Source: Chloroflexota bacterium
GTDB lineage: Bacteria > Chloroflexota > Dehalococcoidia > SM23-28-2 > RBG-16-64-32
Length of the DNA stretch: 41,427 nucleotides
Assembly: GCA_022574655.1 (NCBI GenBank)
Contig: JACZRQ010000009.1
Location: 1 to 41,427 of the forward strand
Direction: 5' to 3'
Shown: one piece after another, positions 21,808 through 33,020 of the stretch
Numbering within the stretch: the first letter of the stretch is position 1
Layout of the letters: the number at the start of each line of letters is the position of its first letter
Made by a program: the position numbers and the translations under genes
Notes under the pieces: model-generated
What the model saw: the letters and a program-made list of their open reading frames with translations, nothing else
Told to the model about the DNA's origin: nothing
Database searches by the model: none

Positions 21808-22094
21808 GGGTGATCGCTTGGAAAACAATAACCCCGCCAATTCACCTTACCAAGGCAAGGTGGACGACGGGGAGAATTACCAATCAGTTGTCGCACAGAT
21901 ATCGACAGATTGTCAACCACTTTCGTTACATTTTCAAGAATTCTAATCAAATGTCCACTTTCGGCGGGGTTGGCCTTGTTGCACCTAAAGAGGTGCGAAT
22001 GGATCGAGTCTGGCCTCTTCGGATCTCAACCGGGCGTTTCTGGATTAGTCGCTAATTGTTAAATTACGCTCCCGTGTCCCACGTTGGCGCCCTT

Positions 22095-22103
22095 TGCTAC
22101 AAT
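22095..22103 (+). promoter_or_regulatory. Extended -10 promoter of the crotonase operon
   Basis: TGCTACAAT with -10 TACAAT at 22098-22103 and a TG dinucleotide one base before it. No strong -35. It lies 27 bases before the ATG at 22131. Confidence 0.5.
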
Positions 22104-22130
22104 TCGGGCGCTGGAGGTCTAACCCCTGAG

Positions 22131-22907
22131 ATGAGTCTGTCTTTCGAGAAACGGGGCGCGGTCGCGCGGGTGACGCTCGATCGGCCCGATCATCACAACG
22201 CGATCGATACGACGGTGATCGTACAGCTTCACGACGTTTGCGAGGCGCTGGCGGACGATGCTGACGTACGAGCGGTTGTACTGACGGGGGAGGGCGACGT
22301 GTTTTGCTCTGGCTGGGACTGGGAGGCGCTGGCCAGCCACGGCGACGACTCCCTGGAAGCGGCGCGAGACGCCGGCATGCTGGACGACCCGTTCGGGTGC
22401 CTGGCGGAGATGTCGAAGCCGGTGGTCTGCGCGATCAACGGCGACGTGATCGGCGGCGGCCTGGCGCTGGCGCTGGCCTGCGACGTGCGAGTGGCGGCGG
22501 AAGGTGCGCGGTTCGCGTTACCGGAGACGGCGATGGGGCTGATACCGATGGCCGGCGCGACGCAGCGGCTGGCGAGGCTCGTTGGCCGGGGAAAGGCGCT
22601 TGAAATTGTGTTGACCGGCGAGAGCATCGGGGCGGATGAGGCGTTTCGCATCGGCCTCGTGAGCGCGGTCGTGTCACGCGAGAAGGTTGTCGGCGAGGCG
22701 GAGCGGATCGCCGGGCGCATCGCGGAGCGCGGGCCCCTGGCGGTGAAGTACGCGAAGGAAGTGATCTCACGGGGGATCGACATGCCGCTGGAGCAGGCGC
22801 TGCGCTACGAGACGGACCTGACGGTGATACTTCAGACGACGGAAGACAGAGCGGAGGGCGTGCGCGCCTTCCTAGAGAAACGCAAGCCGGAGTTCAAGGG
22901 GAAGTAA
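22131..22907 (+). CDS. Crotonase-fold protein, enoyl-CoA isomerase-like active site
   Basis: 258 residues. The ATG at 22131 starts the normal family N-terminus ('LSFEKRGAVARVTLDRPDHHNA'). GGAGG sits 13 bases upstream, which is rather far. Oxyanion-hole elements 'FCSGWDWEAL' and 'GGGLALALACD' are present. The first catalytic Glu of hydratases is replaced by Ala ('GGLALA'), while the second is kept in 'ALPETAMGL'. A single Glu at that position is how enoyl-CoA delta-isomerases work, so isomerase activity is more likely than hydration. 'MAGATQRLARLVG' carries an unusual Ala in the usual GGTQRL. It is the first gene of the operon reaching at least 24756. Confidence 0.88.
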   Translation: MSLSFEKRGAVARVTLDRPDHHNAIDTTVIVQLHDVCEALADDADVRAVVLTGEGDVFCSGWDWEALASHGDDSLEAARDAGMLDDPFGCLAEMSKPVVCAINGDVIGGGLALALACDVRVAAEGARFALPETAMGLIPMAGATQRLARLVGRGKALEIVLTGESIGADEAFRIGLVSAVVSREKVVGEAERIAGRIAERGPLAVKYAKEVISRGIDMPLEQALRYETDLTVILQTTEDRAEGVRAFLEKRKPEFKGK

Positions 22908-22910
22908 CAG

Positions 22911-23171
22911 ATGCAAGTGATCCTGGAGACAGATGAGGCGTGGTCCTTGATCAGCCTGATCACGTCGTACGTGATCGATAACAGCGGCGTGTCGCAGGAC
23001 GGGAAGCAGCGGATTCGGGGCTGGCGGGGCGAGCACGACGGCACGCCGAAGCTGGAAGAACTGACTGCGGCGATCAATGGATCGCTCGGCAGCTACGGCG
23101 ACGAGAAGACGACCCGCCAGATCCGCAAGAAGGGCCGGTTTGCGAAGCAGGCGAAAGGGGCCGCTAGATGA
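22911..23171 (+). CDS. Small protein of unknown function, paralogue of the next gene
   Basis: 86 residues from an ATG three bases after the crotonase stop. It shares a pattern with the following 79-residue protein: E-x-D-E near residue 6-9, 'LISLITSYV' against 'LLSLVVSHL', then Ile/Leu-Arg-x-Trp, then 'ELT' and an Asn. It is strongly helical, charged and basic at the end ('RQIRKKGRFAKQAKGAAR'). There is no membrane segment and no Cys. The ATGA overlap with 23168 implies coupled translation. I recognise no family. Confidence 0.7.
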   Translation: MQVILETDEAWSLISLITSYVIDNSGVSQDGKQRIRGWRGEHDGTPKLEELTAAINGSLGSYGDEKTTRQIRKKGRFAKQAKGAAR

Positions 23172-23450: not shown

Positions 23451-24212
23451 ATGAGCATGATCCTCTACGAAAAGGACGACGCCGGAATCGCCTGGGTGAC
23501 GCTGAACCGTCCCGACGTGCTGAACGCGATGAACATGCAGATGCGCGACGAGCTGTGGGACCTGATGCACGCCGTCCGCGACGATCCAGACGTGCAGGCG
23601 GTGATCTTCAAGGGCGCGGGCGACCGAGCGTTCTCCGCAGGAGCGGACATCAGCGAGTTCGGCACCGCACCCTCGTATGTGGAGTCGAGGCGAGCGCGTC
23701 GGGAACGTGATCTGTGGTGGTTCATGCTCTCGATGGACGAGCTGCTGGTGGCGGCGATCCAGGGCTACGCGCTGGGCGCCGGGATCGAGCTAGCGATGTG
23801 CTGCGACCTGCGAATCGCCTCTGACGATGCGCAGGTCGGGCTGCCGGAGGTGAGCCTGGGATACATCCCGTCCGCTGGAGGTACGCAGACGTTGCCGCGA
23901 CACGTGCCGCCGGGGATCGCGATGCAGATGATCCTGACAGGCGATCCGATCGACGCGGAGGCGGCGCTCAGGCACGGGCTCGTTCAGCGTGTGGTGCCGC
24001 GAGACCAACTGTACGAGGAAGCAGAAGCGCTGACGAGGCGAGGGTTGGAGCGACGACCCGCGGAGGCGATCGTGCTCGCCAAGAGAGCGATTAGAGACGG
24101 CGTGGAACTTTCGCTCGAACAGGGCATCACACTGGAGTCGCGACTGGCGGCGCTGGCGCTGGCGAGCGATCAGGGGAAGCGCGGCGTGAAGGCCGCAGGC
24201 GCGTCAGGTTAG
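23451..24212 (+). CDS. Enoyl-CoA hydratase/isomerase family protein (both catalytic Glu present)
   Basis: 253 residues. It opens 'MILYEKDDAGIAWVTLNRPDVLNAMN', has the oxyanion-hole segment 'FSAGADISEF', then 'GAGIELAMCCDLRIA' with the first catalytic Glu and 'VGLPEVSLGYIPSAGGTQTLPR' with the second. Of the three crotonases in the window, only this one keeps both residues of a classical enoyl-CoA hydratase. It should add water to a trans-2-enoyl-CoA in the cytoplasm. The start codon has no ribosome binding site; a hairpin ends ten bases upstream, so translation may be coupled to the upstream gene or controlled by folding. Confidence 0.9.
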   Translation: MSMILYEKDDAGIAWVTLNRPDVLNAMNMQMRDELWDLMHAVRDDPDVQAVIFKGAGDRAFSAGADISEFGTAPSYVESRRARRERDLWWFMLSMDELLVAAIQGYALGAGIELAMCCDLRIASDDAQVGLPEVSLGYIPSAGGTQTLPRHVPPGIAMQMILTGDPIDAEAALRHGLVQRVVPRDQLYEEAEALTRRGLERRPAEAIVLAKRAIRDGVELSLEQGITLESRLAALALASDQGKRGVKAAGASG

Positions 24213-24231: not shown

Positions 24232-24756
24232 GTGGGTGGAAGTGAGATGCGGACGGTTCCCGGTAAGGTATGGGGGTGGCTTCAGAGGTATTCCCTTGGT
24301 GTCCCGATACTGCTCGGCTTAGTGCTGGCGGGTGGCCTGGGACTTCTGTTTGCGATCGGAGGCGGGTTCCGCGATCCAGCTGCAATCGAGGCGGGCAGCG
24401 TCGATGACTACGAGGTGCGTCTGCCGAAGTACTTCGAGATCGACCGATTCTGGATCGTGAGGCTCGAGGGTGACGAGATCCTGGCGCTGTACGACAAGAA
24501 CCCGCAGTCGCAATGCCGAACGCTGTGGTTCATCAACGAGGAGTTCATGGGGACGACGGGCTGGTTCAACGAGCCGTGCCAGAACCACTTTTACGACTAC
24601 ACCGGCCGCTGTTTTGACTCGGAGTGCACACGTGGGCTCGACCGCTTCGAAGTCGAGGTGACTGAGTTCGGGGAGATCTTCGTGGACCTCTCGCGGCTGA
24701 ATCTGGGCCCGGAGTACGATCCGGACGATGTACCGTCAGTGCCGCCGCAGTCGTAG
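24232..24756 (+). CDS. Membrane-anchored Rieske-fold protein with most cluster ligands lost
   Basis: 174 residues from a GTG at 24232 with GGAGGG eight bases upstream (an in-frame ATG at 24247 is an alternative). One membrane helix (about 22-45) leads to a domain that follows bc-complex-type Rieske proteins: 'AGSVDDYEVRLPKYFEIDRF', 'RLEGDEILALYDK', 'YDYTGRC', 'RGLDRFEVEV' and 'VDLSRL'. Where Cys-x-His is expected it has Asn-Pro-Gln, and where Cys-Pro-Cys-His is expected it has Glu-Pro-Cys-Gln. Three of four iron-sulfur ligands are gone, so a [2Fe-2S] cluster is unlikely. Other Cys residues could make disulfides. It sits 19 bases after the crotonase, in the same operon. Confidence 0.75.
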   Translation: MGGSEMRTVPGKVWGWLQRYSLGVPILLGLVLAGGLGLLFAIGGGFRDPAAIEAGSVDDYEVRLPKYFEIDRFWIVRLEGDEILALYDKNPQSQCRTLWFINEEFMGTTGWFNEPCQNHFYDYTGRCFDSECTRGLDRFEVEVTEFGEIFVDLSRLNLGPEYDPDDVPSVPPQS

Positions 24757-24843
24757 GGGCGCGGTTCGATTCGTGCGTCTGTCCCACTTTGGTGGCGCTC
24801 AGAACGTCGGGTGGACACCCACTGGCGGGAGTAGAATTGGGGT

Positions 24844-25359
24844 ATGGAAAATGTGCCGGTCGCGAAGCCTGCGCCAAAGGGACGCTGGCGGCTGTCGCGC
24901 GGCCCGCTGCTGGTGGGAGCCGGGCTGGCGGCTGTCGTTCTTGGCTTGGTGCTAGTCGTGGCATTCGCGTGGCCGGCGGTCCTTGACGTCTCGCCGACTG
25001 TCGTGGCCGGACAGGTGGACGAATTCGCGGTGGGGGAGCCGGTGCATTTCGAGGAGGAGGGATTCTTCGTCGTGAAGCTGGCGTCGGGCGAGGTCATCGC
25101 GCTAAGCGACCGGGCGGGAGGACATCTGAAGGACCACATCGAATGGCAACCAAGCCTTGAGTTCGAGGACCAGACGGGATGGTTCAGGGCGCCTTCCCAC
25201 CGCGAGACCTACAGTCTCGATGGCTCGCTGGCGTTCGGTCCCGCATCGAGAGGGATGGACCGATTTCCGGTGGAGGTTAGCGGCGACACAGTGCGCGTGG
25301 ATACGAGTAGGCTGATTTGCGGGCCCGGAGCGCCCGAAGGCATGGTGTGCGTGCCGTGA
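24844..25359 (+). CDS. Membrane-anchored Rieske-fold protein without cluster ligands, paralogue
   Basis: 171 residues. One membrane helix (about 22-45) follows a basic N-terminus. The exported domain reads as a Rieske fold: 'VAGQVDEFAVGEPVHFEEEGFFVVKL', 'GEVIALSDR', 'GPASRGMDRFPVEVSGD' and 'VDTSRL'. The cluster-binding sites are missing: Cys-x-His is Ala-Gly-Gly, and Cys-Pro-Cys-His is Ala-Pro-Ser-His. It resembles the product of 24232-24756 and follows it by 87 bases. No Shine-Dalgarno sequence precedes the ATG; TAGAAT lies six bases before it, so a leaderless message is possible. The fold may have become a structural or binding domain. Confidence 0.75.
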   Translation: MENVPVAKPAPKGRWRLSRGPLLVGAGLAAVVLGLVLVVAFAWPAVLDVSPTVVAGQVDEFAVGEPVHFEEEGFFVVKLASGEVIALSDRAGGHLKDHIEWQPSLEFEDQTGWFRAPSHRETYSLDGSLAFGPASRGMDRFPVEVSGDTVRVDTSRLICGPGAPEGMVCVP

Positions 25360-25519: not shown

Positions 25520-27094
25520 ATGAATACTGCTGAATTCCTGATGATCGCCTCGTCCGTTGTACCGGACCGCACGGCGATGACGTGCGAGGGTGCGGACCGC
25601 TCCTTTGCCGAGTTGCAAGAGCGCGTTAACCGGCTGGCGAATGCGCTGCAATCGCTCGGCGTGGGCAAAGGAGACCGCGTGGCGGTGATGGCGATGAATT
25701 CGCCCCAGTTCGTGGAGACGTACTACGCCTGCGCGAAGCTGGGGACGGTGTTCGTGCCTCTGAACTACCGTGCGAAGCGGGAAGAGCTTTCGTACATGTG
25801 CAACAACTCTCAGGCGTCGGTGCTGTTCGTCGGCGACCGCTACCTGGACCTGGCGAACGCGATCAAGCCTGACCTGGAAACTGTGAAACACTTCGTCGGC
25901 ATCGAATCGAAGCCGGAGGGGATGCTGAGTTACGACGAGCTGATCTCTGAGCACGAGCCGGAAGAGATCTTCACCGACATCGACGATATGGACCCGACGA
26001 TCGTGATCTACACCAGCGGCACGACGGCCCTGCCAAAGGGAGTGCTCCTGACGTACCTGGGCATGTCCGTCTACGTGACGAACACCGTCGCCCCCGCCGA
26101 TCCGGCGGCGGAGGACGTGGACGTGTTGCTCGTCTCGGTGCCGTTCTACCACGTGGCCGGAGCGACGACGATGCTTTCGTCTGTCTGGGGCGGGCGCAAG
26201 ATGGTGATTCTACCGCAGTTCGACCCGGGAGCGTGGCTGGAGGCGGTGGAGACGCACAAGGTGACGCACAGCTTCGTCGTGCCAACGATGCTGAAGCGGA
26301 TCATGGAGCACGAGGAGTTCGATAAACGAGACATCAGCTCGCTGAAGCTGGTCGCGTACGGCGCCGCGCCGATGCCCTACGAGGTGGTGACGAAGGCGGT
26401 CGAGAAGTTCAGCTGCGGCCTGATGAACGCCTACGGCCAGACGGAGAGCACGTCGTCGCTGACGTTCCTGGGACCGGACGACCACCAGATACCGGACGGT
26501 CCGCCGGAAGTGCGCGAACTGGCGCTGAAGCGGCTGCGATCCGTGGGAAAGCCAATGGAAGACATCGCCGTCGCGATCATGGACCCGGAGGGCGAGGTTC
26601 TGCCCGCCGGACAAGAAGGCGAGATCGTGGCGCAGGGAGCGCGCGTGATGTCCGGGTACCTGGGCCGCGACGAGGAGACGAGGGAGGCGATAAGGGACGG
26701 CTGGCTGCACACGGGCGACGTGGGCTGGATGGACGACGAAGGCTACCTGTACATCACGGGCCGGACGAAGGACCTGATCATCCGCGGCGGCGAGAACATC
26801 GCGCCGGGCGAGATCGAGAGCATCCTGCAGCAGCACCCGGCCGTCGAAGACGCGGCGGTGATCGGCGTTCCGGACGTGGAGTGGGGCGAAGAGGTGAAGG
26901 CGATCGTCGTCCTCAAGGAAGGCGAGAAGGCATCGATCGATGACCTGACGGCGTTCGTCAAGGAGCGGCTGGCGAGCTTCAAAGCGCCGAAGTTCTACGA
27001 CTTCGTGGACGACCTACCGCGGAACTACCTGGGTAAGGTGCTGAAGAACGACCTTCGCAAGCAGTTCGGCGAGGCGAAGAGCGGAACGGAGTAG
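25520..27094 (+). CDS. AMP-forming acyl-CoA synthetase/ligase
   Basis: 524 residues from an ATG at 25520 with GGAGG about five bases upstream. All ANL-superfamily motifs are present: 'YTSGTTALPKG' (P-loop), 'PFYHVAG', 'YGAAPMP', 'AYGQTE', 'LHTGDVGWMDDEGYLYITGRTKD' with the hinge, and the C-terminal catalytic Lys in 'YLGKVLKNDL'. It activates a carboxylic acid to acyl-CoA with ATP through an acyl-adenylate. A medium- or long-chain or cyclic acid is plausible given the crotonases and CoA transferases nearby, but chain length cannot be read. It is monocistronic by spacing. No firm promoter was found in 25360-25519. Confidence 0.93.
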   Translation: MNTAEFLMIASSVVPDRTAMTCEGADRSFAELQERVNRLANALQSLGVGKGDRVAVMAMNSPQFVETYYACAKLGTVFVPLNYRAKREELSYMCNNSQASVLFVGDRYLDLANAIKPDLETVKHFVGIESKPEGMLSYDELISEHEPEEIFTDIDDMDPTIVIYTSGTTALPKGVLLTYLGMSVYVTNTVAPADPAAEDVDVLLVSVPFYHVAGATTMLSSVWGGRKMVILPQFDPGAWLEAVETHKVTHSFVVPTMLKRIMEHEEFDKRDISSLKLVAYGAAPMPYEVVTKAVEKFSCGLMNAYGQTESTSSLTFLGPDDHQIPDGPPEVRELALKRLRSVGKPMEDIAVAIMDPEGEVLPAGQEGEIVAQGARVMSGYLGRDEETREAIRDGWLHTGDVGWMDDEGYLYITGRTKDLIIRGGENIAPGEIESILQQHPAVEDAAVIGVPDVEWGEEVKAIVVLKEGEKASIDDLTAFVKERLASFKAPKFYDFVDDLPRNYLGKVLKNDLRKQFGEAKSGTE

Positions 27095-28195: not shown

Positions 28196-30319
28196 ATGGC
28201 CCCATCGACTGAGTTCCCGGGGAACGTTTTCTTCTATCTGGTGCTGATAGGGTTCCTCGGCTTCTTCGCCTGGTCAGTGGCTGTGCGTGCCAAGTGGTTC
28301 ACACAGACGCAGTGGGTGAACCGGTTTACGGACCCGATCCAACGAATCGTCGGGCTGATCCCGTTCCTGCTAGGGAACTCGCGCGTGGCGCGGAAACGCT
28401 ACTGGTACTCAGGCTCACTGCACACGATGATCTGGCTGGGCTTCCTGGCCCTGCAGATACGAACGCTGAACTTCCTGCTGAACGGCGTGCATGAGGACAT
28501 CAGCTTCGAGCACAACTTCGGCGTGGTCTGGGACTATGGGCTGCGACCGACGCTGGACGTCTTCAACATCCTCGTTATCGTGGGTGTGGGGATGGCGGCA
28601 TTCCAGCGGTTTTTCTGGAAGCCGAAACGGATGACGCTGAACTGGGACGGCTGGCTGACGCTGTTCTTCATCGGTTGGCTGATGGTGACGGACGTGTTCA
28701 CCAACAGCTTCGAGATCTACCTGTTCAACCCCGAGAACAAAGAATGGAGCTTCCTGGCGTACGGGCTGTCGGAGGTCTGGAGAGAGATGGGGATGTCGGT
28801 CGGTACGGCGGAGGCGCTTCACGTTGTCTGGTGGTACCAGCACCTGGTCGACTTCCTGGCGTTCCTCTGCTTCCTACCGTACTCGAAGCACTCGCACGTG
28901 CTCACGATCGTGCCGCAGATATTCACGCGGCGGCTGGAGCCGACGGGCGTCCTGCAGCCGCTCGGCGACTTCGAGAAGCTGGAGCACTTCGGCGTCGGCA
29001 AGCTCGAGCAGTTCAACTGGAAACAGCTGTTGGACTCGTATTCATGCACGGAGTGCGGGCGATGCACGGACGTGTGTCCAGCGAACATCACCGGCAAGAC
29101 GCTGTCGCCGAAGGCGATCATCGTCAACATGCGGCATCTGATGGAAGAGCAGGAGCCGGCGTTGCTCCCGAGCACTAAGAAGCCCGAGGAGATAACACCG
29201 CTGATCGACGGTGTCGGCTACGAGCCACTGTGGGACTGCGTGACCTGCGGCGCGTGTATGGAGGAATGTCCGGTCTTTATCGAGCACGTGCCGACGATCA
29301 TGGACATGCGCCGCAACCTGGTGATGGAAGAGTCGAAGATGCCGGAACAGGCACAACAAACGTTGCAGCAGATCGAGCAGCGCGGCCACCCGTGGCGCGG
29401 GTCGCAGCTTACGCGCACGAGCTGGATCGAGGAGATGGCCACGGAGGGCGTTGAGGTACCTGTGTTCGACGGCTCGCAGGAGTACCTGTACTGGGTGGGC
29501 TGCACGGGGGCGCTGCAGGAGCGGAACGTCAAGGTTACGCAGTCGCTGGTGCGGCTGCTGATCGAAGCTGGTGTGAGCTTCGGCGTGCTGGCGGCGGAAG
29601 AAGGCTGCTCGGGCGACCCGGCGCGCAGGTTCGGAAACGAATACCTGTACCAGACGCAGGCGGAACAGAACATCGAGATCATGAAGTCGAAGAACGTGCA
29701 GAAGGTGCTCGCCAACTGCCCGCACTGCTACAACACGATCGCCAACGAGTACCCGCAGTTCGATGGCGAGTTCGAGGTGATACACCACACGGTGTTCCTC
29801 GACCAGTTGCTGGCCGACGGCAAGCTTCGCCCCGAGCAAGTGAACGGCCTTGCGCAAAAGACCGTGACTTACCATGACCCCTGCTACGCCTCCCGCCACA
29901 ACAGCATCATCGACGAGCCGCGGCGGGTGCTGACGGCGACCGGGGTGAAGACGGTCGAGATGCAGCGCTGCAAGCGATCGACGTTCTGCTGCGGCGCCGG
30001 CGGGTCCCACATGTGGATGGAGGAGAGCCAGGGTCAGCGGATCAACGACCACCGCATGGAGGAGGCGGTCGGGACGGGCGCGGACGTGATCGCGGTGGCC
30101 TGCCCGTTCTGCATGCAGATGTTCGAGTCTTCAGTGGGAGCAGTACCCGAGGCGGAGGAACGCGGCCTTCAAGTGTTCGACATAGCGGAGCTGTTGGATC
30201 AGAGCATCACCTACAGCAAACCGCTGCCGCCCAGCGGCAACGGTGGCGGAGCCCCGCAGGACGATGAGACAGAGCCGGAGGCTACGGAGGCGGGCGCGGG
30301 GGACGCCAAGACGGAGTAG
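28196..30319 (+). CDS. Membrane-bound Fe-S oxidoreductase, FadF/EMO-like (heterodisulfide reductase-related)
   Basis: 707 residues from an ATG with GAGGAGG upstream. The N-terminal part has about five membrane helices (about 10-230) like the heme-binding subunit of nitrate reductase gamma/HdrE. Two [4Fe-4S] ferredoxin motifs follow: CxxCxxCxxxCP at 284-294 and 348-358. Two CCG-type domains come next: a degenerate one ('NCPHCYN', 'GCSGD') and a canonical one ('DPCYASRHN', 'FCCGAGGSH', 'ACPFCMQ'). Such fusions are proposed to pass electrons from ETF, reduced by acyl-CoA dehydrogenases, to menaquinone (FadF, or EMO in syntrophs). This fits the acyl-CoA genes nearby. No ETF gene is in view. Confidence 0.88.
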   Translation: MAPSTEFPGNVFFYLVLIGFLGFFAWSVAVRAKWFTQTQWVNRFTDPIQRIVGLIPFLLGNSRVARKRYWYSGSLHTMIWLGFLALQIRTLNFLLNGVHEDISFEHNFGVVWDYGLRPTLDVFNILVIVGVGMAAFQRFFWKPKRMTLNWDGWLTLFFIGWLMVTDVFTNSFEIYLFNPENKEWSFLAYGLSEVWREMGMSVGTAEALHVVWWYQHLVDFLAFLCFLPYSKHSHVLTIVPQIFTRRLEPTGVLQPLGDFEKLEHFGVGKLEQFNWKQLLDSYSCTECGRCTDVCPANITGKTLSPKAIIVNMRHLMEEQEPALLPSTKKPEEITPLIDGVGYEPLWDCVTCGACMEECPVFIEHVPTIMDMRRNLVMEESKMPEQAQQTLQQIEQRGHPWRGSQLTRTSWIEEMATEGVEVPVFDGSQEYLYWVGCTGALQERNVKVTQSLVRLLIEAGVSFGVLAAEEGCSGDPARRFGNEYLYQTQAEQNIEIMKSKNVQKVLANCPHCYNTIANEYPQFDGEFEVIHHTVFLDQLLADGKLRPEQVNGLAQKTVTYHDPCYASRHNSIIDEPRRVLTATGVKTVEMQRCKRSTFCCGAGGSHMWMEESQGQRINDHRMEEAVGTGADVIAVACPFCMQMFESSVGAVPEAEERGLQVFDIAELLDQSITYSKPLPPSGNGGGAPQDDETEPEATEAGAGDAKTE

Positions 30320-30455: not shown

Positions 30456-33020
30456 CTACGGCGCTGTGTCGTACCAAAGGATGGCCCCAAGTACCTCCCC
30501 CACCTCCAGCGGCTCAACGTCTGCCACCGTTAGCGTCCAAGTTCCAGCAATGCTCTCGCCGTCAAACACACTTAGCGGATTCGTAGGTGCGAATATGCCG
30601 TCTATCGATGGAGTCTGCACCGAACACTGATCCTCGACAGGGTTGGGAGCCTCGTCCCACAGAAGCACACGAATGTCGAAGCCATCGCACCCGAACTCCG
30701 CAGCGGGGAATCCAGGCCGGTCGATTACGACCGCAGATGTGCCAGTGTCATCGTGTGTAAGTGTAACAACGAGGTCACCAACCCACGTGTGATCCACGTT
30801 AACGCAAAGGGCTAACTCGGTTATGAGACCTATATCGCCAGATGTGTCGAAGAAGACCGGGACGCCAGCAGGATCGTTGTCTGGGATAGCTAGTGGAGGC
30901 TCTAGGGTAGGACACTCGGTACTGGGTGTGGGGATCGGCGTTGGGCTGGGAGAAGGTGTGGGCGACGGTGTTGGGGTCGGAGTGGGAGTAGGCGTCGGTG
31001 TGGCGGTGGGCGTTGAAGCATCCGTTTGGGTCGGGCCTGCCGATCCAGTCGGCGTGGGTGCCAAGGTAGGCGTAGGTGTGGCCGTCGGGGTTACCGTTGG
31101 ACTAGGGCTGGACGTGGCCGAGGCGGTTGGGATTGGGGTCGGCGTTGGGGTCGGCGTCGGAATCGGCAGCCCGGTCGCAGGCGGTGCGGGTGTTGGCTGA
31201 ACGATCACTGAGCCGATAGGGGTGCATCCGCTTGGTAACGTGTTCGTAAGTCCACCAACATGTTTGAGTATCGTCAACAGGTCAACGGAGTCTACGTCAT
31301 TGTCGCAATCCACGTCACCGTGTATCTGATTGAGCGTCGATGTCGAAACTAATGACAAGAGGGCGGCTCCAATAGCCGGACATCCTGGGGCTTGAGTAGT
31401 GGCTAGACCGGCGACATGGCGGAGGCCCGTAAGGGCATCGACCGAGTCAACATCGCCGTCGCAATCGATGTCTCCGGCCAATAGACTTTGTGCTGGTGCC
31501 GGTGTTGGGGTGGCCGTCGGAGTTGGTGTTGGGACTAAAGGCGTCGGGGGCGGTGTATTGGTCTCTTGTGGAGAAGGCGATGGCGTAGGGCTGGGTGTAG
31601 TTGGGGCGTCTAAGCAATCAGGTCTATTGTTGTTGTCTGAGTCTTCTAGGGCGTCAGCCGCTTGAACAAGACCAGCACCATATCGCGAGTCGTATCCAGA
31701 GGCTCCGAGGTCTTCGGAGCTGCATCGCAGAACGTCTCTTACTTCCTTTGGAGTCAGATTCGGGTACTCCGACAGGATAAGTGCCACCACTGCGGCCACG
31801 TGCGGTGAAGCCATGGAGGTTCCTTCCAGAACACAGTATGCGTGGATTGTGAAGTTGATTGGCGTTCCTAGGCACGTGTGGGCATAAGTGCCTTGCAGAA
31901 CGCCGTCTAGTAGGCCGTCGCCGTTGAGGTCGACGCTTGTGTCCCCTCCTGGTGCTACCACGTGAAGATGGCTTGATCCGCCTTCCGAAGTTCCGTAGTT
32001 CGAGTAACCGGTCTTCTGCTTGTTCAGGTCGACGGCTCCGACGGAAACAACCGTTGGCAGTGCTGCAGGATACGATATTGACGAGTTACCATCGTTTCCG
32101 GCTGCTGCCACGACGACAACGCCCTTGGATTCTGCGTATGAGATTGCGGTTCGAACAACCTGTGCAATCGATGCTCCGCCAAGGCTCAAGTTAATGACAT
32201 CGGCTCCGTTGTCTACGGCATAGCGAATACCGTCCGCTACATCCGCGTTAGGACAGTCTGTGGTAAGGAATAGGATAGAGACGCAAACTTTCACCGGCAT
32301 GATCTTCGCGTTGTAAGCAACTCCTGCGACCCCGATGTTGTTGTTCGTCCTCTGAGCAATGGTTCCCGTGACGTGCGAGCCATGACCGGTATCGTCCTGT
32401 GGGAAGTCATCACCCTCAATAATGTCGACTGGCGAAACGAACTGAGTTCCCACCAGATCCGGTTGGCGTGCGTAACACAGGATTGGAATCCCTTGAAAGG
32501 TGAAGCAGAAGTCGGTATTAGCGACTCCTGAGTCCACAACGGCAACTGTGACTCCGGATCCTGTACTCTGATGCCAGGCTTCCTCGGCTTGAATCATCGG
32601 TAGATGCCACTGAAACGAGAAGAATTCGTCGTTAGGACTGGCCGACGAGTTGTGCGAGAATGGATGCCAGATCAGATTCGGCTCGACTAGGTCGACGAGA
32701 GGGTGAGCTGAGAGAACCTGTATGTATTCATCCTCTCGGCCCTCGGGCACGGTTACAAGTGCATCTGTTCCGGACAGAAGTAGTCGTTCGATTCTGACAT
32801 TCGCACCTGACAAGGTGGCAATCCCTGCCGGCATATCGACGCCAGCCTTGAATCGAACTATTAGCTCACCCGGAACCGCGTCCAATTGATCGACGTCTGG
32901 TTCGGTGCCGAGAGTCGCTGCTTCGCCCTCCCTCCCGTCTGAACCCAGGCTGAACGCGAGCGCCAAGGCCACGGCGAGTCCGGCAAGGCGATAGACCGAT
33001 GATCTCACGCCCCTACCCAA
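30456..33020 (-). CDS. Secreted subtilisin-like serine protease with internal dockerin-like repeats and C-terminal P-domain
   Basis: 854 residues from a TTG at 33020 directly after the stop of the mini-lipoprotein gene; a GTG four codons later is possible. A signal segment (about 8-25) and an inhibitor-like prodomain (about 45-115) lead to a peptidase S8 domain with Asp163 ('VVDSGV'), His213 ('GHGSHVTG') and Ser402 ('GTSMASPH'). Two Cys-bearing dockerin-like loops (about 514-605) lie between Thr-Pro linkers, and a proprotein-convertase P-domain (about 705-854) ends the chain. The other dockerin-like proteins here carry that module at the end. It is an exported protease, probably held at the surface. 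Confidence 0.92.
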   Translation of the reverse strand: MGRGVRSSVYRLAGLAVALALAFSLGSDGREGEAATLGTEPDVDQLDAVPGELIVRFKAGVDMPAGIATLSGANVRIERLLLSGTDALVTVPEGREDEYIQVLSAHPLVDLVEPNLIWHPFSHNSSASPNDEFFSFQWHLPMIQAEEAWHQSTGSGVTVAVVDSGVANTDFCFTFQGIPILCYARQPDLVGTQFVSPVDIIEGDDFPQDDTGHGSHVTGTIAQRTNNNIGVAGVAYNAKIMPVKVCVSILFLTTDCPNADVADGIRYAVDNGADVINLSLGGASIAQVVRTAISYAESKGVVVVAAAGNDGNSSISYPAALPTVVSVGAVDLNKQKTGYSNYGTSEGGSSHLHVVAPGGDTSVDLNGDGLLDGVLQGTYAHTCLGTPINFTIHAYCVLEGTSMASPHVAAVVALILSEYPNLTPKEVRDVLRCSSEDLGASGYDSRYGAGLVQAADALEDSDNNNRPDCLDAPTTPSPTPSPSPQETNTPPPTPLVPTPTPTATPTPAPAQSLLAGDIDCDGDVDSVDALTGLRHVAGLATTQAPGCPAIGAALLSLVSTSTLNQIHGDVDCDNDVDSVDLLTILKHVGGLTNTLPSGCTPIGSVIVQPTPAPPATGLPIPTPTPTPTPIPTASATSSPSPTVTPTATPTPTLAPTPTGSAGPTQTDASTPTATPTPTPTPTPTPSPTPSPSPTPIPTPSTECPTLEPPLAIPDNDPAGVPVFFDTSGDIGLITELALCVNVDHTWVGDLVVTLTHDDTGTSAVVIDRPGFPAAEFGCDGFDIRVLLWDEAPNPVEDQCSVQTPSIDGIFAPTNPLSVFDGESIAGTWTLTVADVEPLEVGEVLGAILWYDTAP

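Follow-up and report, generated by a model that had tools for sequence, protein, structure and literature searches.

Background

The small subunit of nitrite reductase, NirD (Pfam Rieske_2), has a Rieske fold without a cluster. In a Rieske ISP of Acidocella, three to four of the ligands are lost, the pair of disulfide cysteines is kept, and a structural role has been proposed (PMC10715153). Cluster-less Rieske folds are therefore already known. Our literature search on cluster-less Rieske proteins, which reached few subscription journals, returned only the Acidocella protein and no description of the clade reported here. Another described system that bears on this locus is EtfD, an ETF:menaquinone oxidoreductase that serves as a wire from cytosolic ETF to the membrane quinone (PMC13083937). 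The EtfD of M. smegmatis was purified and its structure solved without a Rieske-like partner (PMC13083937), so such a partner is not needed by EtfD in general.

A tandem pair of Rieske-like proteins without cluster ligands

The window, meaning the whole stretch of DNA that was analysed, comprises 41,427 nucleotides of a metagenome-assembled genome (MAG) of a Chloroflexota bacterium within the class Dehalococcoidia. An earlier note on this DNA had claimed two tandem, membrane-anchored Rieske-fold proteins that have lost the iron-sulfur cluster. Both open reading frames were present. We use the term ghost for a Rieske-fold homologue stripped of its cluster ligands.

24232 to 24756, + strand: P1, the first ghost Rieske protein; 174 aa from the GTG at 24232, 169 aa from the ATG at 24247; in the ATG numbering, a transmembrane (TM) helix at about 18-37 and an all-beta Rieske-fold domain at about 46-152
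24844 to 25359, + strand: P2, the second ghost Rieske protein; 171 aa; a TM helix at about 20-42, then a Rieske-fold domain

No Pfam or NCBIfam profile matched P1 or P2 above its cut-off. P2 scored 11.7 bits with the Pfam Rieske profile (PF00355; cut-off 20.3), P1 gave no match to it, and the Rieske_2 profile of NirD (PF13806) stayed below threshold at 12 bits (cut-off 27). With scores below the cut-offs, the family search was therefore unable to settle the Rieske identity of the pair.

The same MAG encodes an intact QcrA elsewhere, at its qcrBC locus (contig C55, locus L053), so P1 and P2 are paralogues. When aligned with this QcrA (CPHLGC...CPCHN), P1 was changed at all four ligand positions (NPQSQC...EPCQN), and P2 (AGGHLKD...APSHR) had the last histidine as its sole remaining ligand. 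The first-loop histidine of P2 (AGGHLK) would be a second kept ligand only under another gap placement. The canonical CxH/CPCH set was absent from both proteins (NPQ/EPCQ in P1, AGG/APSH in P2). The ligand loss was thus as the earlier note had described it and, since the ligands are lost, its conclusion that the pair has no Rieske redox role is supported. Judging from the sequence, we infer that P1 and P2 would be without a cluster. P1 retained Cys90 and Cys111, which aligned with the non-ligand disulfide cysteines of Rieske proteins; both were missing in P2, which had cysteines only near its C-terminus. P2, with its disulfide lost, is the more diverged of the pair. Its N-terminus was QcrA-like (VPVAKPAPK).

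The genome also holds a second tandem pair, whose loops (DPHSEC...DPCHGS and GPHLKRC...NPCSSS) have more ligands left than those of P1 and P2:

913 to 1440 and 1447 to 1965 of contig C116 (locus L048), - strand: second tandem ghost pair of the same genome, adjoining an enoyl-CoA hydratase gene

Predicted fold and topology

AlphaFold2 was run with an alignment of 31 ligand-less homologues and zero canonical Rieske rows. The models of P1 (pLDDT 88.9, pTM 0.72) and P2 (pLDDT 90.5, pTM 0.71) each consisted of a beta domain preceded by one helical anchor at the N-terminus. Rieske domains were the top PDB matches in Foldseek: 9rk4 for P1 (TM 0.77 by target, rmsd 2.2), with 9rk3 also matched, and again 9rk4 for P2 (TM 0.74 by target), followed by 8hn2 and 9rk3. 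The NirD structures 4aiv, 3c0d and 2jo6 were also among the fold matches of P1. Structure prediction, which the earlier note had suggested as a check, confirmed at the level of models that both proteins keep a Rieske fold with a single N-terminal membrane helix. The former cluster loops of P1 were modelled with high confidence (block means of 94-96), whereas confidence was lower for the first loop of P2 (82), where the disulfide is missing.

Lysine and arginine were enriched before the TM helix in 25 of 28 proteins (mean 3.3 before vs 1.0 after), and by the positive-inside rule the domain is therefore predicted to lie outside. Ahead of the TM helix, 40 of 45 canonical proteins but only 6 of 31 ghosts carried a twin-arginine motif, as a motif count rather than an export test. 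Plausibly, the motif is mostly gone in ghosts because a cluster-free domain could be exported unfolded, with no need for Tat.

Distribution, phylogeny and selection

Homologue searches covered the family, order, class and phylum, with a tool-made sampling of the class; the counts are lower bounds, with at least 79 ligand-poor homologues. At least 11 of the 15 searched genomes of the window's GTDB family encoded ligand-less homologues of P1 and/or P2, and the remaining four had intact Rieske proteins only, among the matches listed. Because of this recurrence and the confidently predicted fold, the ligand loss of P1 and P2 is not due to chance or assembly error. A restriction of ghosts to this GTDB family proved wrong, as the wider searches found them in other families. 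A restriction to the Dehalococcoidia had to be qualified, since genomes of a family outside the class (f122) carry independent-looking ghosts.

Among the 79 ligand-poor homologues, the first cysteine ligand was replaced in 78 (by Asp in 37), and so was the second (Asp 58, Asn 8, Glu 6). The first histidine ligand was present in 31 and the second in 13; 43 had no ligand left. Canonical homologues within the same alignments retained C-x-H/C-x2-H. Each disulfide cysteine was present in 76 of the 79, and the three losers (P2 of the window, one protein of genome G179 and one of locus L248) lacked both. In the conservation ranking of the 141 alignment columns in ghosts, the disulfide cysteines were 2 and 4 and the histidines 56 and 59.

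In a tree constructed with the ligand columns removed, 77 of the 79 formed one clade (SH-aLRT 99), all members of which lacked both cysteine ligands. In a tree of 71 rows that was built with more care, 30 of 31 ghosts grouped together (support 99/94). In both trees, P1 and P2 were grouped with other ligand-less proteins, apart from the canonical Rieske proteins. Rooting was done by choosing four canonical rows, and the inner branching order of the ghosts is unsure because the branches are long. The protein of genome G256 (DPHRGC...NPCHGE) was placed among canonical proteins and is perhaps a second ligand loss; a single origin including it was not rejected (p-AU 0.26). The f122 ghosts (genomes G475 and G626; loci L272 and L275) had the loops STHMRC...SPCDGS, and the one at L272 lay directly downstream of qcrB-qcrC. 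The L272 ghost probably marks a separate loss of the cluster within a bc operon, and ligand loss was therefore probably repeated within the phylum.

Several single loci deserve mention. At L229 (5742-6368, - strand), a near-canonical Rieske protein lies beside a canonical one and has its last histidine changed to arginine (CTHLHC...CPCRG). It is the one protein among the 79 that still has cysteine ligands. It is not a true ghost, because only one histidine is lost and it groups with canonical proteins, and it is an early-looking stage of the same ligand-loss process. One qcr locus of genome G016 (L054, 5726-6766 and 7005-7520, - strand) contains two canonical Rieske frames, either a tandem QcrA or a split gene. 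A 592-aa frame at L144 (8055-9830, - strand) has an aspartokinase-like start running into a ghost Rieske, which may be a fusion, a read-through frame or an internal start. The sole test outside the Chloroflexota, a P1-profile search of genome contigs, gave ten loci, all of the P1 type. The contig JADFOF010000296.1 (L134), labelled Planctomycetota, carries a ghost pair nearly identical to pairs of Chloroflexota MAGs and is probably mis-binned or mislabelled.

In close orthologues, dN/dS (Nei-Gojobori) was 0.13-0.29 across five pairs of P1 and 0.22-0.40 across P2-type pairs, or 0.20-0.40 when the f68 pairs are counted with the latter, compared with approximately 0.15-0.2 for the adjacent acyl-CoA synthetase. 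The ghost genes are constrained, slightly less than the acyl-CoA synthetase gene, and they are therefore not decaying.

Genomic context

In the window, P1 and P2 are part of a gene cluster with the following neighbours:

22056 to 22907, + strand: ECH_a, enoyl-CoA hydratase/isomerase (Pfam PF00378, 228 bits); opens the conserved operon
22911 to 23171, + strand: 86-aa conserved protein; in most loci, and across families, its gene separates the two ECH genes
23451 to 24212, + strand: ECH_b, enoyl-CoA hydratase/isomerase (PF00378, 202 bits); the most constant upstream neighbour of ghosts
25520 to 27094, + strand: ACS, fatty-acid/acyl-CoA synthetase (PF00501, 302 bits); the constant downstream neighbour of ghosts
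28196 to 30319, + strand: EtfD/FadF-type ETF:menaquinone oxidoreductase (Pfam CCG and Fer4)

The 86-aa protein had no match in Pfam or NCBIfam. ACS also matched the NCBIfam long-chain-fatty-acid-CoA ligase subfamily NF004837 (531 bits; cut-off 476). EtfD contained 4Fe-4S domains, two CCG domains and an N-terminal membrane region. Its top PDB match was 9ojn (E 6e-113), an entry named "iron-sulfur-binding reductase" with 1042 residues, which was taken to be the M. smegmatis EtfD by the shared length of 1042 residues (PMC13083937). Further along the window (30456-33020, - strand), the translation was recognised by eye as a large, secreted protease of the subtilisin-like kind that carries dockerin-like repeats and a linker rich in proline and threonine.

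In several Dehalococcoidia families, most ghosts were encoded in a conserved operon with the usual gene order ECH, small protein, ECH, ghost Rieske (one or two), ACS, EtfD, EtfB and EtfA. In a marker map covering 65 loci, ghosts were located between ECH_b and ACS on a single strand in families f1, f6, f27 and f68, the first three of which showed the operon order, and they adjoined ECH_b in f3 and f21. The order ECH, small protein, ECH, ghost, with or without ACS, was also found in f38. EtfD, EtfB and EtfA come after the ghost and ACS in f6 and f27. A ghost-profile match lay within approximately 6 kb of EtfD in 19 of the 20 EtfD-bearing f6 genomes examined, and the 18 of these matches that were read (all except G179:C53) were all ligand-less; in the exception, G309, EtfD was on a separate contig. 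EtfD was encoded away from the ghost locus in f68 and f21. Linkage to EtfD is therefore not universal, and ECH_b and ACS are the most constant neighbours. Approximately 20 of about 58 ghost loci lacked these neighbours within the sequence that was read, and ghosts therefore also occur in other settings. In the 65-locus map, canonical QcrAs were near qcrB or qcrC, but no ghost of the Dehalococcoidia clade was.

The search for orthologous pairs and their neighbours that the earlier note had proposed thus revealed recurrent pairs and a conserved beta-oxidation/ETF operon in the Dehalococcoidia. The tandem arrangement is real and recurrent but not universal, as many loci hold one ghost only. The suggested part as an accessory of a quinone complex agrees with the gene neighbourhood, EtfD being a member of the usual operon, but a link to cytochrome bc is not borne out, the ghosts of the clade not being near qcrBC.

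Proposed role and alternatives

With about as much belief as doubt, we infer that these cluster-less QcrA-type paralogues have no redox function and serve, on the extracytoplasmic side, as a docking or stabilising component of a beta-oxidation/ETF-to-menaquinone module. Sequences, models and trees show the Rieske fold, the single N-terminal anchor, the complete loss of both cysteine ligands, purifying selection and the conserved operon position; the ghost domain would lie on the outer membrane face according to the positive-inside pattern. Judging from the sequence, the retained disulfide, together with Asp, Asn or Glu in place of the cysteine ligands (Asx-Pro-type turns), may keep the old cluster loops in place. 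The domain would carry no electrons. Since ETF is cytosolic and EtfD is the wire to the membrane quinone, a domain on the outside could make contact only with the membrane part of EtfD, with some other quinone enzyme or with an external substrate. The ghost may cap or stabilise the membrane domain of EtfD, on the route from ETF via EtfD to menaquinone; alternatively, it may use the former docking surface of the Rieske domain to tether EtfD to a different quinone enzyme. Paired ghosts would probably act side by side. A more tentative and rather doubtful proposal is that the ghosts represent a new type of subunit in a quinone-reductase assembly that oxidises acyl-CoA.

The main rival is the capture of an external substrate for the adjacent ACS. 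The ghost would bind a hydrophobic or organic-acid substrate on the outside, or pass it to a transporter, and ACS would trap it as a CoA ester (vectorial acylation). The predicted outside location of the domain agrees with this, as does the gene order, in which ACS directly follows the ghost at most of the operon loci, including those of f68 that are without EtfD at the locus. However, the linkage to ECH_b is at least as constant as that to ACS, and the ghosts have neither a binding pocket nor a known ligand-binding relative, their nearest folds being electron-transfer domains. We consider substrate capture unlikely.

As an inactive Rieske protein docked on QcrB, the ghost might instead stabilise or regulate the bc complex. 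The relatedness of ghosts to QcrA in the tree is consistent with such a decoy or non-redox subunit, as are the ghosts of the two f122 genomes, in one of which the ghost gene directly follows qcrB-qcrC, and the Acidocella ISP is a precedent from a deranged bc1 for which a structural role was proposed (PMC10715153). It is nevertheless improbable for the Dehalococcoidia clade, of which zero ghosts mapped near qcrB/qcrC, unlike the canonical QcrAs, and the twin-arginine export motif is mostly missing in ghosts.

A mononuclear metal site of two His and one Asp, still used by some members, was considered because the motif DPHxGC...NPCH is recurrent. Both histidines were present in 8 of the 79 ligand-poor homologues, six of which had Asp as ligand 1 and either Asn or Asp as ligand 2 (DHNH/DHDH), and the pattern recurs in G256, outside the clade. 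Yet most members lack both histidines, the histidine columns are poorly conserved, 43 of 79 are without any ligand, and the site is missing from P1 and P2, all of which makes this reading very unlikely. That a [2Fe-2S] cluster is still bound via other residues, for which P1 offers four cysteines (90, 111, 122 and 127), is scarcely credible: C90 and C111 align with the Rieske disulfide, the extra pair C122/C127, invariant across nine P1 orthologues, is positioned after the cluster loops and missing from most ghosts, and the cysteines of P2 are confined to the C-terminal neighbourhood. Decaying pseudogenes or assembly artefacts, as the rapid divergence and some very divergent members might suggest, are refuted for the ghost family by reading frames that are open in many independent MAGs, by dN/dS ratios well below 1, by nearly invariant disulfide cysteines and by a conserved operon position.

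Comparison with known systems

As a docking or stabilising part of the ETF-to-menaquinone module, the ghosts would be a specific candidate partner of EtfD, the mycobacterial form of which is under exploration as a tuberculosis drug target. They illustrate a respiratory metalloprotein that, after duplication, lost its cofactor site and yet was retained and diversified throughout a bacterial class, the dead redox protein seemingly being re-used as a structural or docking part. For annotation, they are a warning that a Rieske fold does not equal a Rieske cluster.

The ghosts resemble QcrA/PetA in their fold, N-terminal anchor, C-terminal GLDRF and VD strands, and sequence and tree relatedness, and P1 also in its disulfide cysteines. 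They differ from QcrA/PetA in being without cluster ligands, in having mostly lost the twin-arginine motif and in their location outside the qcr locus. With NirD they share a cluster-less Rieske fold, and NirD structures were among the fold matches of P1. NirD, however, is a soluble partner of NirB, whereas the ghosts are membrane-anchored, have beta-oxidation neighbours and fall under the Rieske_2 cut-off. EtfD/FadF is encoded in the window and in the conserved operon, and no Rieske-like partner has been reported for the known EtfD (PMC13083937). The Acidocella protein is similar to P1 in its ligand loss and kept disulfide cysteines, but not to P2, which lost both cysteines. It belongs, as the ISP, to a degenerate bc1 operon of acidophilic Acetobacteraceae, whereas the ghosts are an added paralogue, class-wide and often paired, with a beta-oxidation/ETF operon and no petABC operon. 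What is new compared with these systems is a class-wide paralogous clade beside an intact QcrA, with frequent pairing and a place in a beta-oxidation/ETF operon.
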